From a virus: 30,968 nucleotides of DNA. The notes under the pieces are model-generated. The model was not told where the DNA came from and ran no database searches. It saw only the letters and a program-made list of their open reading frames with translations. Below are positions 7,180 through 30,656 of this stretch, piece after piece. How positions within the stretch are numbered: position 1 is the first letter of the stretch; every line of letters begins with the position of its first letter. The DNA lies in the IMG/VR virus record IMGVR_UViG_3300037809_000523, positions 1 through 30,968 of that record. One strand, 5' to 3'. Both the position numbers and the translations under genes were made by a program.

Positions 7180-7199
7180 CCTAAAAGCGCCCTTAGGTT
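7178..7199 (+). terminator. Hairpin after hsp20, weak terminator candidate
   Basis: AACCTAA at 7178-7184 pairs perfectly with TTAGGTT at 7193-7199 around an 8-base loop (AAGCGCCC). It begins at the hsp20 stop codon. No proper T tract follows, and its right arm overlaps the -33 box of the next promoter, so it might act as an operator or attenuator instead. Confidence 0.3.
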
Positions 7200-7228
7200 G
7201 GTTTATATGAATTATTTTCGTATATTTA
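7198..7228 (+). promoter_or_regulatory. Bacteroidota-type promoter, copy 2 (groES-groEL unit)
   Basis: TTG at 7198-7200 (GTTG where other copies have TTTG) stands exactly 20 bases before TATATTTA at 7221-7228, again preceded by TTCG. It is the only such element before the four-gene unit at 7254-9752 with GroES and GroEL. The leader would be about 20 bases and ends in AAAAAGTTAT directly before the ATG. Confidence 0.7.
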
Positions 7229-7841: not shown

Positions 7842-9476
7842 ATGGGAATGGATTATAAAAAACAAATTGAATTTGGCCCTGAAGCAAGGGAAGAGTTAAT
7901 GAAAGGTATTAATATTTTAGCGGATGCTGTTGTCTGCACATTAGGACCTAATGGGAGAAATGTATTAATTGATAATAGTGGTTATGGTGCAAAAGCTCCT
8001 CCAACACACACAAAAGATGGTGTAACTGTTGCTAAGAATATTACTGTTGATGGTTTAGTTCCTAATTTAGGAGCACAAATGATTAAAACAGCAGCTATGA
8101 AAACTGCTGATAAGGCTGGGGATGGTACTACTACTTCAACTTTATTAGCTCGTGAATTAGTAAAAGCTGGGTTATCTCATCTTAATAATGGTGAAAATGC
8201 TGTTGAAATTAAAAGAAATATTGAAGCAGCTGTAAACGAAGTAGTTTCTGTTATTAAAAATAATATTAGTAAAGAAATTTCATCTGAAGAACAACTACAA
8301 CAAATAGCAACAATATCAGCAAACAATGATATTGAAATTGGAAAACTTATTGCAACTGCAATTGAAAAAGTAGGACAAGATGGAGTAGTTCATATTGAGG
8401 AATCAAAATCAGGAGATACTTATCTTGAAACTGTTGAGGGTATGCAATTCGATAGAGGATATAAATCTCATTTCTTTGTTACTAACAATTCAGATATGAG
8501 TTGTACATTAGATAATCCTTTTGTATTAATTGCCGATCATAAATTTACACAAGTAAAAGAATTACTCCCTATTTTAGAAAGTGTTTCTAATCAAAATCGT
8601 TCATTACTTCTTATTACTGATGATATTGATGGTGAAGCGTTAGCAACCCTTATTGTAAATAAAGCAAGAGGAATACTTAAAGTATGTGCTATTAAAGCTC
8701 CTGATTTTGGAGAGAGAAAAAAATTATCATTAGAAGATATTGCTACATTAACAGGTGGTACTGTATTTGATAAAGATAAAGGAATGAAGCTTGATAAGTT
8801 TTCTTATGATTGGTTTGGAGAAGCTCGTACTGTTACTATTACTAAAGAACAAACAACAATTGTTGATGGTAAAGGAGCAGCTGAAGATATTGAAGCTAGA
8901 GTATCTGAATTACAATCTCAAATTGATAAAGAAGATACACCTTATATTATTGAACATTTACAAAATAGATTGGCTAAAATGGTAGGTGGAGTGTCTATTA
9001 TTCATGTAGGTGGATTTACTGAAACTGAAGCTAGAGAAAAGAAGGATAGAGTTGATGATGCCCTCCATGCTACAAAAGCAGCTTTAGAAGCTGGAGTGGT
9101 ACCAGGAGGAGGGGCAGCATTACTTTATGCTTCTAATGGATTAGATAATAATAATTTAGGTAATTCAATTGTTAAAAAAGCATGTAGAAAACCATTTACT
9201 CAAATTTTAGTTAATGCTGGTCATGAACAAACAGAAGCAGAAATAATTGCAAATAAATTAATTGAATCTGGAAATGATTATTGGGCTGGTTATGATGTTA
9301 AAAATGAAGAAATTGTTAATATGGAAAAAGAAGGAATTATTGATCCTTCTAAAGTGACAATTACAGCATTACAAAATGCAGCATCCGTAGCAGGTACTAT
9401 ACTTTTAACAGAATGTGTAGTTGTTGACCATCCAGAACAAAAAGAACCAACTCCAGATGGGGTAAGTAATTTTTAA
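7842..9476 (+). CDS. groEL: Chaperonin GroEL
   Basis: The 544 residues cover the full chaperonin. The N-terminal equatorial part has LGPNGRNVLID and the ATP-binding GDGTTTSTLLARELVKAG (D94). The apical and intermediate regions include GYKSHFFVTN and IKAPDFGERKK. The C-terminal equatorial part has VPGGGAALLYA and ALQNAASVAGTILLTECVVV. Compared with bacterial GroEL, a small insertion is visible at YGAKAPPTHTKDG, and the C-terminal GGM repeat is missing (ends DGVSNF). That tail lines the cavity floor, so substrate handling may differ. The gene has no Shine-Dalgarno; an A-rich run precedes the ATG. Confidence 0.97.
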   Translation: MGMDYKKQIEFGPEAREELMKGINILADAVVCTLGPNGRNVLIDNSGYGAKAPPTHTKDGVTVAKNITVDGLVPNLGAQMIKTAAMKTADKAGDGTTTSTLLARELVKAGLSHLNNGENAVEIKRNIEAAVNEVVSVIKNNISKEISSEEQLQQIATISANNDIEIGKLIATAIEKVGQDGVVHIEESKSGDTYLETVEGMQFDRGYKSHFFVTNNSDMSCTLDNPFVLIADHKFTQVKELLPILESVSNQNRSLLLITDDIDGEALATLIVNKARGILKVCAIKAPDFGERKKLSLEDIATLTGGTVFDKDKGMKLDKFSYDWFGEARTVTITKEQTTIVDGKGAAEDIEARVSELQSQIDKEDTPYIIEHLQNRLAKMVGGVSIIHVGGFTETEAREKKDRVDDALHATKAALEAGVVPGGGAALLYASNGLDNNNLGNSIVKKACRKPFTQILVNAGHEQTEAEIIANKLIESGNDYWAGYDVKNEEIVNMEKEGIIDPSKVTITALQNAASVAGTILLTECVVVDHPEQKEPTPDGVSNF

Positions 9477-14544: not shown

Positions 14545-14576
14545 TTTGGATACTTAATAGTATTTTCGTATATTAC
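14545..14576 (+). promoter_or_regulatory. Bacteroidota-type promoter, copy 3 (Cas4-like nuclease)
   Basis: TTTG at 14545-14548, a 20-base spacer ending TTCG, then TATATTAC at 14569-14576. The second box deviates by one T from the commonest TATATTTA. The predicted leader to the TTG start at 14596 is about 15 bases. Confidence 0.65.
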
Positions 14577-25463: not shown

Positions 25464-25495
25464 TTTGGGTATCTAATATTCCTTTCGTATATTTA
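25464..25495 (+). promoter_or_regulatory. Bacteroidota-type promoter, copy 4
   Basis: TTTG at 25464-25467, a 20-base spacer ending TTCG, and TATATTTA at 25488-25495. The leader to the ATG at 25547 would be about 45 bases, the second longest among the seven copies, and A/T-rich with GTATAAATTAAATATAG. Confidence 0.72.
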
Positions 25496-27622: not shown

Positions 27623-28325
27623 TAAATTTATATACTGTAATATAAATAGATTATCCCCAGAAGCACCAGTCCCAGTATTAATTCCAATCCATACTGAAAC
27701 AAACCCCGGCATGTCAGGTAATACTTGTGCTAATATTAAAGCATTATCACCAGACTCACAAGTTATTCACTTTTCAAATTTAAAACAAATAACAAAAACA
27801 AGGTATGTAGAAAAGAAAACAAACCATATGTTTTTGAGGGTTGATGAAGGTGATGATAATATCGAATCCTTTAAATGGAGTGATGATTATATCTATTTTT
27901 TAGAAGAAGCTGATGTTGTTATTGTAAGCGATTATGATAAAGGATACTTAACAGACGAAGATTTAATAAAAATTGCTACATATTCAAAATTATCAATCTT
28001 AGACAGCAAACGTGAACTCACTAACTCAATTTCAAACTCTTTTGACTTTGTTAAATTGAATGAAGAAGAATGGGCTAGTAATAATGTTTTAAACCCTAAA
28101 AATATTATTGTAACTTTAGGATCTAAAGGCTCAATGTATATGGGAGAAATATTCCCATCTGATAATCCACAAGAAACAATTGATGTTAGTGGTGCTGGAG
28201 ACACATTTACAGCTGCATTTGCTATATCATATGCAACAGCCCCATCTGTTCCTAATGCTATTAAATATGCTAATACAGTGGCGTCTAAAGTCGTTAGTAA
28301 ACGAGGAGTAAAGACTCCCGCATAA
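27579..28325 (+). CDS. PfkB-family sugar kinase, HldE (heptose-7-phosphate kinase)-like
   Basis: The protein has the HldE-type start IVIIGETCVDKFIYCNINRL followed by SPEAPVPV, the VIVSDYDKGYL strand-loop, and the ribokinase-family active site TIDVSGAGDTFTAAFA with base D208. HldE makes activated heptose for LPS cores. At 248 residues it is shorter than the HldE kinase domain (about 315), so part of the lid is missing. Start 27588 (MKIVIIGETC) is an equally good choice. It may supply sugar phosphates to the glycan genes upstream, or it may act on another sugar. Confidence 0.85.
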   Translation: MKNMKIVIIGETCVDKFIYCNINRLSPEAPVPVLIPIHTETNPGMSGNTCANIKALSPDSQVIHFSNLKQITKTRYVEKKTNHMFLRVDEGDDNIESFKWSDDYIYFLEEADVVIVSDYDKGYLTDEDLIKIATYSKLSILDSKRELTNSISNSFDFVKLNEEEWASNNVLNPKNIIVTLGSKGSMYMGEIFPSDNPQETIDVSGAGDTFTAAFAISYATAPSVPNAIKYANTVASKVVSKRGVKTPA

Positions 28326-28328
28326 ATG

Positions 28329-28360
28329 TTTGGAGAAGCAAGAGAGGGTTCGTATATTTA
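28329..28360 (+). promoter_or_regulatory. Bacteroidota-type promoter, copy 5
   Basis: TTTG at 28329-28332, 20 bases, TATATTTA at 28353-28360. The spacer carries GAGAAGCAAGA, also found in copies 6 and 7, so these three are closely related. A TATAAATA octamer (28363-28370) follows three bases later. Confidence 0.75.
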
Positions 28361-28362
28361 GG

Positions 28363-28370
28363 TATAAATA
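28363..28370 (+). promoter_or_regulatory. TATAAATA octamer, candidate late promoter
   Basis: An exact T4 late-promoter octamer lies 12 bases before the ATG at 28383 and immediately behind promoter copy 5. Such tandem early and late elements could let one gene be expressed in both phases. Chance occurrence is possible. Confidence 0.3.
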
Positions 28371-28382
28371 AAGGTAAAGCAT

Positions 28383-28823
28383 ATGGCACTCTGGAAATTC
28401 ACAAATTTAAATAAATACGGAAACCCAAGATCTAGGATTATCTATAGACCTGATGGTGAAGCTTTTGGGTTTAATCCTAAAGGGTTTGGTCCTTTTGTTA
28501 ATGTTCAAAGGTTTAAATATGAGCATAAACATGAATTAATTCCACCAGCATTAGTAGTATCAAATGGTAAAAAATATATTGTACCAACATGGAAAGAAGT
28601 TGATCCAAATACTACTTTAAATGATATTCAATGGATTAGACCAAAAGTTAAAATAACTAAATCTGAAACTGTAGTTAAGATTTCAAAAAGTAGTAGTGGT
28701 GATGCTGAATATACTACAAAATACTACCCAGATTCAGGTAGATGTCATTGTGATTGTCCTGGTACTTGGAGGACTAGAGGAAATTGTAAACACGTAAAAG
28801 AAATGAGAAATGAACAGGGGTAG
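28383..28823 (+). CDS. SWIM zinc-finger protein
   Basis: Residues 121-137 form CHCDCPGTWRTRGNCKH, matching the SWIM pattern C-x-C-xn-C-x-H (C123, C125, C135, H137), a zinc module for DNA or protein contact. The first 90 residues contain YGNPRSRIIYRPDGEAFGFN and PPALVVSNGKKYIVPTWKEV, which I cannot assign. It has 146 residues and its own promoter. It overlaps the next gene by 14 bases. Confidence 0.78.
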   Translation: MALWKFTNLNKYGNPRSRIIYRPDGEAFGFNPKGFGPFVNVQRFKYEHKHELIPPALVVSNGKKYIVPTWKEVDPNTTLNDIQWIRPKVKITKSETVVKISKSSSGDAEYTTKYYPDSGRCHCDCPGTWRTRGNCKHVKEMRNEQG

Positions 28824-29226
28824 ACCAGCAGAAAACACAGAACGTAGAACTAAATATGTTCTAGAATTTATTGATGTACCATCAAAACCAGAATTAGGTG
28901 GTAGACAATTATGGCATTTTGATGATAATAAATCTAAAAATGGAGCATGGAAAGTAGAAAGTTTTCCTGGACCTGAGGAAAAGAAAAGTAAATTCAAACC
29001 AAATATTCAAAAAGGTAAAGCGTATGGTAAACTACCAGTAGTTATGGTGTTTAAATCATCAAATCGCTCAAATGCAAAAACCAAAATGAAAATTTGGAAT
29101 AACGAAAATGTAGATTACATTATATCAGCTAAAAAACTCCCGGGCGTTCCTGATAATGCTATTATATTAGAATTGGGTGTGGGGAAAAGTTTTATTGAAA
29201 AATGGCAATTAGAATATAGTTTGTAA
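28810..29226 (+). CDS. Unknown protein (138 aa), coupled to the SWIM protein
   Basis: The basic protein begins MNRGRPAENTERRTKYVLEF and contains GGRQLWHFDDNKSKNGAW and LPVVMVFKSSNRSNAKTK, followed by a C-terminal helix. The mixed strand pattern suggests one globular domain. The start lies inside the end of the SWIM gene. No catalytic motif is visible. Confidence 0.7.
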   Translation: MNRGRPAENTERRTKYVLEFIDVPSKPELGGRQLWHFDDNKSKNGAWKVESFPGPEEKKSKFKPNIQKGKAYGKLPVVMVFKSSNRSNAKTKMKIWNNENVDYIISAKKLPGVPDNAIILELGVGKSFIEKWQLEYSL

Positions 29227-29255
29227 TATTTATCAACGAATAAAAATTAAACACA

Positions 29256-29882
29256 ATGGCAACACGAGCACTTATAGGTTATTTAGATGAAGATAGAAAC
29301 TTCACTTGCACATACAATCATTACGATGGTTACCCAGAAGGTTTAGGTAAAGCATTACTTAACCACTATGATACTGAAGACACAGCTAAAAAAATAGCAA
29401 ACACAGGATATATCTCATCTGTAGATGAAGATGGGACTATTGATTCAAAATACGATGAACCAGCTAATAAAATAAAATTAGATGGTGAGTGGGAAGATGC
29501 ATTAGAAGAAATGGCTGGTAAAGTAGATGAAGTTGGTGGTGATTATGGCTATATTTGGTGGGAAGGTGATGGAGATTGGGTCCAAATAAAAAATACTGGT
29601 ATGAGAAGTATGATGGATCAAATAGCAAACCAAATGTCATCAGCTACTAGCATGTTTGGCCCTGTTGATGAAAATAAAAAAGAAGAAATGGCGGAAAATT
29701 ACATAACAAAATGGAATGATTTTATTACTGAAAATAAAGTAATTGATGATCAATGGACATTATATGTAAAATCATTAGTTAATGCCATTAGATTAAATGG
29801 AGTTGATGATTATATTGACTTTAGTGAAGATGACTTTAAAGAAGATTTTGATAATTATATAGCAGATAAAATGGATCTCTAG
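29256..29882 (+). CDS. Conserved phage protein of unknown function (208 aa)
   Basis: The N-terminus MATRALIGYLDEDRNFTCTY followed by NHYDGYPEGLGKALL is a conserved start seen in small proteins of phages and bacteria whose role is not known. GDYGYIWWEGDGDW (about 94-107) is a second conserved-looking block. The protein is strongly acidic, with a helical C-terminal half. A rho-independent terminator follows at 29912. Confidence 0.75.
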   Translation: MATRALIGYLDEDRNFTCTYNHYDGYPEGLGKALLNHYDTEDTAKKIANTGYISSVDEDGTIDSKYDEPANKIKLDGEWEDALEEMAGKVDEVGGDYGYIWWEGDGDWVQIKNTGMRSMMDQIANQMSSATSMFGPVDENKKEEMAENYITKWNDFITENKVIDDQWTLYVKSLVNAIRLNGVDDYIDFSEDDFKEDFDNYIADKMDL

Positions 29883-29911
29883 TATTAATTTTCACCCCTG
29901 ATCCTAAAATT

Positions 29912-29936
29912 GAGGCACCATTGGTGCCTCTTTTTT
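29912..29936 (+). terminator. Rho-independent terminator
   Basis: GAGGCACC (29912-29919) pairs perfectly with GGTGCCTC (29923-29930) around a three-base ATT loop, followed by six T. The 8-bp GC-rich stem is the most GC-rich hairpin I saw. It ends the unit at 28383-29882 and lies directly before promoter copy 6. Confidence 0.93.
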
Positions 29937-29946
29937 ATTGAAAAAA

Positions 29947-29978
29947 TTTGGAGAAGCAAGACAGGGTTCGTATATTCA
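29947..29978 (+). promoter_or_regulatory. Bacteroidota-type promoter, copy 6
   Basis: TTTG at 29947-29950, 20-base spacer with GAGAAGCAAGA and ending TTCG, TATATTCA at 29971-29978. If +1 lies at the usual distance from the -7 box it falls at or within a base or two of the ATG at 29983, implying a leaderless transcript. Confidence 0.75.
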
Positions 29979-29982
29979 TACC

Positions 29983-30381
29983 ATGGATAAAGAAAGGATA
30001 CGATCTATAATAAATAAAACTTACCCAAAAATAGAAAAATATTATGGTAATTCAAAATACCATAATTGTACTCCTTATATTGAACTTCACCACAACATTT
30101 ATATAAGAATAACAGGTGATGATTATGACCAAGATATTCTATCAGAAACAGAATGTAACCCTGATGCTGAATATGATAAGGATGATAATACTATTGTAAT
30201 TTATTGGCCTAAAATGATTGATAAAGAAACAATTATTAGGTCTTTAATACATGAATACCAACATTATTTACAATCACCCTCATGGATGAAACGATATTAT
30301 AATATAGGATATGATTATAATACCCACCCCTATGAAGTGCTAGCAAAAGAAGAAGAAGAAAATTGGAAGATATTTGTGTAA
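29983..30381 (+). CDS. Small HExxH metallopeptidase-like protein
   Basis: The 132-residue protein starts MDKERIRSIINKTYPKIEKY. I chose 29983 because the upstream in-frame TTG (29938) lies inside the promoter. Zinc-binding HEYQH (H90, E91, H94) lies in SLIHEYQHYLQSP, and HPYEVLAKEEEENW could supply the third ligand (E118). The design matches single-domain gluzincin-like peptidases. The target is unknown. No signal peptide is visible, so the protein is probably cytoplasmic. Confidence 0.75.
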   Translation: MDKERIRSIINKTYPKIEKYYGNSKYHNCTPYIELHHNIYIRITGDDYDQDILSETECNPDAEYDKDDNTIVIYWPKMIDKETIIRSLIHEYQHYLQSPSWMKRYYNIGYDYNTHPYEVLAKEEEENWKIFV

Positions 30382-30384
30382 AAA

Positions 30385-30416
30385 TTTGGAGAAGCAAAAA
30401 ATCGTTCGTATATTTA
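30385..30416 (+). promoter_or_regulatory. Bacteroidota-type promoter, copy 7
   Basis: TTTG at 30385-30388, a 20-base spacer starting GAGAAGCAAA and ending TTCG, TATATTTA at 30409-30416. It begins three bases after the metallopeptidase stop. The leader of roughly 50 bases ends in AAAGGTTAT before the ATG at 30471. Confidence 0.75.
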
Positions 30417-30470
30417 CGGGGTAAATGAGGCATGAAGCCAATAGAACACAAATAAATTAATAAAGGTTAT

Positions 30471-30656
30471 ATGAAAATCAATTTAAATCCGTCCAATTCA
30501 AAAGTAATAAATGAAGTTGTATTTGTTACAGCATTAAAAGTTCAATCAATGTCTAAAAAATTAGAAGAACTTGTAGAGTATGGTAATAATATTAAACACC
30601 CAACATTAGGAATAATGTATCAATATAATGGGAAGTTTTCAAGAACTAATTCATAA
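30471..30656 (+). CDS. Unknown small protein (61 aa)
   Basis: The protein begins MKINLNPSNSKVINEVVFVT and has a central helix (KVQSMSKKLEELVEYGNN) and a Gly/Tyr-containing tail. The start has a good leader (TAAAGGTTAT) and promoter. No function recognised. Confidence 0.6.
   Translation: MKINLNPSNSKVINEVVFVTALKVQSMSKKLEELVEYGNNIKHPTLGIMYQYNGKFSRTNS

Follow-up and report, generated by a model that had tools for sequence, protein, structure and literature searches.

The DNA analysed here (hereafter the window) is the whole 30,968-base stretch of a virus record. It harbours seven copies of a putative 30-base promoter, all on the plus strand: six match TTTGG-N15-TTCGTATATT (at 392, 14545, 25464, 28329, 29947 and 30385; 0.00 expected from 100 dinucleotide shuffles) and one, at 7197, is a version with GTTGG. 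The copies at 28329, 29947 and 30385 also match TTTGGAGAAGCAA-N7-TTCGTATATT. The features are given below, with RNA starts predicted from the -7 spacing of F. johnsoniae promoters as found in excerpts of PMC6847099.

392..421, plus strand: promoter of the same family with a different spacer (pattern match)
7197..7226, plus strand: promoter of the same family with a GTTGG box and a different spacer (pattern match)
14545..14574, plus strand: promoter of the same family with a different spacer (pattern match)
25464..25493, plus strand: promoter of the same family with a different spacer (pattern match)
28329..28358, plus strand: promoter copy 1, with TTTGG (-33 box), GAGAAGCAA at 28333-28341 and TTCGTATATT; predicted RNA start 28365, next gene ORF 28383-28823
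29912..29936, plus strand: terminator-like site, an 8-bp stem then six T, directly 5′ of promoter copy 2
29947..29976, plus strand: promoter copy 2, with GAGAAGCAA at 29951-29959; predicted RNA start 29983, which is the ATG of ORF 29983-30381
30385..30414, plus strand: promoter copy 3, with GAGAAGCAA at 30389-30397; predicted RNA start 30421, next gene ORF 30471-30656
30413..30425, plus strand: TTTAC-GGG-GTAAA dyad spanning the predicted RNA start of copy 3, seen again in relatives
30429..30439, plus strand: putative short leader hairpin GGC-ATGAA-GCC of copy 3, read by eye

The upstream neighbour of copy 1 is a PfkB-like gene. Copy 2 starts 36 bases 5′ of an ATG that opens the frame of a small protein, itself weakly matched by a PHROG of unknown function, and copy 3 comes after this gene (29983-30381). 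Since its ATG coincides with the predicted RNA start at 29983, the mRNA of ORF 29983-30381 may be leaderless; an element at 109253 of the related record G001 has an ATG at the same distance from its promoter. At 30413-30439 and in many relatives, the predicted RNA start is spanned by a TTTAC-NNN-GTAAA dyad and followed by a putative leader hairpin, which often has a GNRA loop in the relatives (GGGTGCGAACCC). Moreover, a GC-rich box resembling TAAAGACTYCCGCG lies just 5′ of the promoter at 28309-28321 and upstream of many elements, sometimes overlapping the 3′ end of the upstream gene.

Bacteroidota promoters carry TTTG at -33 and TAnnTTTG at -7, according to excerpts of PMC7366714 and PMC6847099. 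Applied to the element, the F. johnsoniae spacing found in such excerpts places the RNA start at base 37 and TTTG at -36 to -33. TTTGG lies exactly 20 bases 5′ of TTCGTATATT in 144 of 202 contexts, any other distance occurring at most three times, in a count where 49 of the 129 loci came from a search pattern that itself fixes the distance. At the -7 box, TATATT was fixed by the search and the following bases are T in 75% and A in 83%, so that TAnnTTT is mostly present and its final G mostly absent. Judged from their sequence, the boxes fit a Bacteroidota primary-sigma promoter. A phage sigma factor was rejected as the reader: region 2 matched weakly in three of ten records, one match being over the cut-off, and region 4 in none of the ten. 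Likewise, a 270-aa protein at 130553-131365 of G001 (L280:10553-11365), with a weak sigma region 2 match (similar matches occur in G004 and G011), was discarded as the reader of these promoters (Pfam E 0.023, solved structures E 0.68, nothing in PHROGs). Matches to Lactococcus (E 3) were put down to chance.

The original prediction held that the last three copies share GAGAAGCAA and that the four upstream copies do not, and this is borne out. In the window GAGAAGCAA is seen three times (0.24 expected, first-order), always inside these promoters and never on the other strand. The exact ten-base spacer form at 28329, 29947 and 30385 alone stands out; with one mismatch allowed, there is no enrichment in the window (5 found, 3.71 expected). 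Over their 30 bases, copies 1 and 2 show a single difference, whereas copy 3 has the same boxes and GAGAAGCAA and differs in the next seven bases. The three copies do lie within 2.1 kb, as had been pointed out, but their clustering is partly an effect of the window edge: contig stretch L044, 99.94% identical over 3,562 shared bases, continues beyond the window end with one more AGAAGCAGG copy and one CTTAGCC copy. A recent duplication of the three copies as a unit, also proposed, is not supported, because the exact GAGAAGC form of the element was found in 49 stretches of viral contigs and because likeness within the window stops after about 38 bases (84-87%, repeat finder); a recent tandem duplication of a larger cassette was rejected, likeness ending there.

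Relatives were gathered by pattern, among the matches listed, and with the protein encoded at 29938-30381 (80 of 195 relatives kept). Twelve larger records chosen from them, some being near duplicates, each contain 17-40 pattern matches with at most two mismatches, mostly on one strand, compared to 0-2 per strand for a reversed control. Among phage records, Flavobacterium phage immuto_2-6A comes closest, a 3,968-base query matching it with 70% identity over 181 bases; of the 19 sites listed for it, none has a spacer of the AGAAGC type. The exact form also occurs in three bacterial-genome contigs, all MAGs; the titles of two read Flavobacteriaceae or Flavobacteriales, and that of the third Pelagibacter. 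G001 has a tail sheath gene and is thus a myovirus. Altogether, the promoters probably belong to a large myovirus of marine Flavobacteria-type hosts. The window also carries a GTP cyclohydrolase gene (446-1141), and immuto (L273) a queuosine/7-deazaguanine set with DpdA, which together suggest modified phage DNA. In the literature, no account of this promoter motif stood out among titles and abstract openings, in a search of text and not of the sequence itself.

In G001, TTCGTATATT is found 25 times on the plus strand and never on the minus strand; a bidirectional promoter, judged by eye, was dismissed on this absence. Twenty-three of the 25 listed elements lie at 58-127 kb, among small genes and replication genes (exonuclease, helicase, ribonucleotide reductase), while terminase, portal, capsid, sheath and baseplate genes are located outside this block, as judged from 20 ORFs scanned against PHROGs, several without a match. 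Another motif, TATTTATAA, has 27 copies on the plus strand of G001 and six on the minus strand; 19 of the 27 plus copies are outside 58-127 kb and eight inside this presumed early block. One example (G001, L274-L282), at 8649, is just before the portal gene at 8667. In the window, TATTTATAA is absent from the plus strand and present three times on the minus strand. These positions relative to replication and structural genes and to TATTTATAA lead us to regard the TTTGG promoters as probably early or early/middle, and TATTTATAA as a candidate late promoter motif of these viruses.

GAGAAGC is one of a few recurring spacer types and not a private duplication. The 258 deduplicated elements, a set that the choice of search patterns biases, often have CC (73 elements) or AG (66) at bases 9-10, where mutual information is 0.63 bits against 0.08 for the 99.9% level of shuffles; 81% have A at base 13. 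The type is rare when the spacer is unselected: a search that left the spacer unconstrained gave 76 elements, with AGAAGC or AAAAGC in six, other nnnAGY in five, nnnCC in 28 and others in 37, and only two had GAGAAGCAA[AG]. Among protein-retrieved loci, six of 26 elements start with AGAAGC. Finally, the spacers of 203 TTTGG elements have CAAA at base 11 in 23 cases and at base 12 in 19, none of the other positions among 12 having it more than twice (1.7 per position in shuffles).

At this fixed place, CAAA forms an imperfect dyad, TTTG-N6-CAAR, with the -33 box. Scoring TTTGG against bases 10-15 with wobble allowed, we found at least four of the five pairs in 72 of 76 elements, compared to at most 34 in spacer shuffles. 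A column shuffle that keeps the consensus gives the same values (five pairs in 47 of 76, shuffled mean 47.3) and the left arm is fixed; the pairing is therefore consensus and no proof of folding. A general RNA hairpin, strong at first, failed this control and was abandoned.

It is unlikely, in our view, that the element is a stem-loop of the coding-strand RNA, with the -33 box as 5′ arm and GAGAAGC as loop and 3′ arm, which would end or protect the upstream transcript in a terminator-promoter overlap. The bases facing the box are those that RNA wobble permits, with purines opposite T and pyrimidines opposite G (opposite T: A 140, G 66, T 14, C 8; other spacer bases: G 83, C+T 438), and the fold of the coding strand is more stable in 141 of 254 elements against 59 for the other strand, but the column shuffle yields equal pairing. 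Swapping arms weakens folds overall (z about -7 to -8, n=254), an effect driven by the nnnAGC and "other" classes that clade composition may inflate. The 29 elements of the nnnAGCCARA subtype have extended, covarying arms (sum 4.1; mean 3.5 and maximum 4.0 in 1000 swaps). Among nnnAGCC elements (15 in one test, 29 in another), AGGGA/TCCCT and AGATA/TATCT substitute for each other. However, arms do not covary in the AGAAGC[AG] class to which the window copies belong (-2.13 vs -1.99 swapped, 37 of 200 reaching), nor in the CCAAA (z 0.0) and nnnCC (22 of 200 swaps reaching) classes. Support for folding thus comes only from a small subtype. By an ORF/terminator rule, long hairpins are seen in 48 of 300 elements without an upstream terminator of their own and in none of 12 with one, the latter being too few to tell. 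The dyad also occurs at a divergent pair that has no co-directional gene in between. The five pairs are kept in all four elements scored divergent by the ORF rule, one of which (L346) is doubtful by the ORF list, and one true divergent pair was read in the sequence of L016, both elements starting with TTTGGAGAA. A related and quite unlikely possibility is that the -33 box doubles as a stem-loop arm with interchangeable loop modules (AGAAG, CTTAG, YTNC), the same block-swapped 30 bp serving both as promoter and as a signal read through its structure (terminator, insulator or phage-factor recognition).

The original prediction also called for an alignment of the intergenic gaps in related phages. 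At the same places in relatives, the boxes are kept and the spacer is often changed, and GAGAAGC therefore does not simply track the boxes or the gene; promoters of the same type group instead by contig stretch. Over 94 independent ortholog pairs, whose flanks have a mean identity of 0.894, the boxes, which the search required, hardly change, while bases 15-20 change most (0.209 vs 0.09 in flanks) and bases 6-8 also change faster than flanks (0.156 vs 0.093). In pairs of the AG class, bases 6-8 change at 0.091 (0.095 in flanks), bases 12-14 are fast (0.182) and only bases 9-11 appear held (0.045). In three of the 94 pairs, two of them from the same two contigs, bases 6-11 change as a block between the AG and CC types. 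One pair (L316/L319) has six differences in bases 6-11 and one in 12-20; in L009/L063, two promoters changed in opposite directions, each with five differences in 6-11, and with none and three in 12-20. The DNA around these promoters aligns well, though imperfectly, the centre of the downstream TTTAC-NNN-GTAAA differing in two of the three.

At the 29947 site, comparison with L072 (92.3% DNA identity) reveals a patch: GAGAAGCAA is kept and five of the next seven bases differ, the window version being like copy 1 and the L072 version like copy 3. This patch appears conversion-like, and together with the block changes of bases 6-11 at orthologous promoters it lends support to the gene conversion that had been proposed. 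Among the 31 relatives examined out of the 80, only L072 has AGAAGC at the 29947 site; at the 30385 site, it is found in five (L051, L054, L069, L070 and L072), with AAAAGC in seven, TTCCCC, CTCCCC or TTACCG in four and a weak or no match in 15. At the site of the 28383 gene, the spacer starts AGAAGC in L051, L054 and L072, CTCCCC in L064, which shares with the window only the gene downstream of the 28329 site (67%), and TTTCCT in L165, which shares both neighbours; promoters of L058 and L060 were dropped as orthologs, being located downstream of the matched gene. For 129 elements of AG or CC type at 50 loci, pairs within a locus are of the same type at 0.693, against 0.521 when permuted (reached in 2 of 2000), the loci being contig stretches (only G001 and G011 are whole records) and pattern ascertainment and shared ancestry being caveats. 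Adjacency adds nothing to type sharing (51 of 79, permuted mean 53.3). In L016, five AG-type elements on both strands are all AGAAGC. Such clustering would fit within-genome homogenisation or a genome-wide factor better than local duplication.

Descent and exchange alone, with promoter copies converting each other and GAGAAGCAA having no function of its own, could account for the 29947 patch and the block changes, for identical 30-mers 270 bp apart in G001 and for the fast change at bases 6-8 (0.156) and 15-20 (0.209). We consider this improbable: the types recur across many contigs, the position of CAAA is fixed, and the three AG/CC changes run from one recurring type to another. Equally improbable is a spacer preference of the RNA polymerase, by which YYRRR after TTTGG would be part of sigma/polymerase recognition with no extra regulator; the dyad may be such a plain consensus, since the column shuffle fully reproduces the pairing, and YYRRR is seen by eye in many AT-rich G009 spacers, but discrete AG or CC types at bases 9-10 (0.63 bits, pattern-biased set) would be unusual, and in F. 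johnsoniae promoters, according to excerpts of PMC6847099, AT-rich stretches at -18 and -28 stand out far more than a -33 motif.

With moderate confidence, we propose that the spacer box is a regulatory site acting at the DNA level and spread by exchange in host-type early promoters. The host primary sigma factor would read the promoters, and bases 6-14, adjoining the -33 box, would be a short exchangeable DNA box that comes in a handful of versions, GAGAAGCAA(G/A) among them. This box, the partner of the -33 box in the imperfect dyad, would be a regulatory half-site; by binding it, a factor would cover part of the -33 box and so modulate or silence the genes that follow. Short-tract exchange between promoters may spread and homogenise the copies, which would explain why GAGAAGCAA is shared in the window and why blocks change between relatives. 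The earlier proposal of an additional regulator site holds as a fact of sequence, with recurring types at a fixed position, but no regulator binding the spacer box was found. For a group of marine Bacteroidota viruses, these results map candidate early and late promoter motifs in a form that can be tested, and point to six-base, putatively regulatory blocks exchanged between promoters of related viruses.

Several known systems can be compared. The PeSL cassettes, reportedly described in T4-like phages by Arbiol in 2010 and Comeau in 2014 (cited in PMC4503421), combine a promoter and a stem-loop. In PeSLs, a stem-loop terminator is joined to an early promoter, and the cassette mediates the shuffling of accessory modules. 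As in PeSLs, the promoter copies are dispersed among small accessory genes, and the 29947 copy is directly behind a stem-loop terminator. Unlike PeSLs, the promoter is of Bacteroidota type, an adjacent terminator is seen at one of the three copies (29947, none being seen at the other two) and, by rule, at 12 of 312 elements, and six-base blocks inside the promoter are among the exchanged parts; exchange was seen inside the promoter only. N4-type DNA-hairpin promoters also have a dyad inside the promoter and are served by an encoded virion RNA polymerase. Here, the dyad is centred near -29 and the boxes are of host type. A cursory motif scan of the three plus frames of G001 and G011 identified no virion polymerase: DxDGD gave two matches, one in a 523-aa ORF without a PHROG or Pfam match. 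This protein (L282:15-1586) holds PDFDGDDEM, slightly like an RNA polymerase catalytic motif, perhaps by chance; a 2263-aa protein (L281:768-7559), Hint/intein-like over residues 1624-1763, matches no polymerase in Pfam. Finally, like the primary-sigma (sigma-ABfr) promoters of Bacteroidota, as presented in excerpts of the literature, the elements have TTTG at the -33 place and TATATT at the -7 place with 20 bases between, but they differ by GG after TTT, TTCG before TATATT, mostly TATATTTA instead of TAnnTTTG, and a patterned spacer. We infer a family of host-type promoters whose unusual spacer box can be exchanged and would have a regulatory function.
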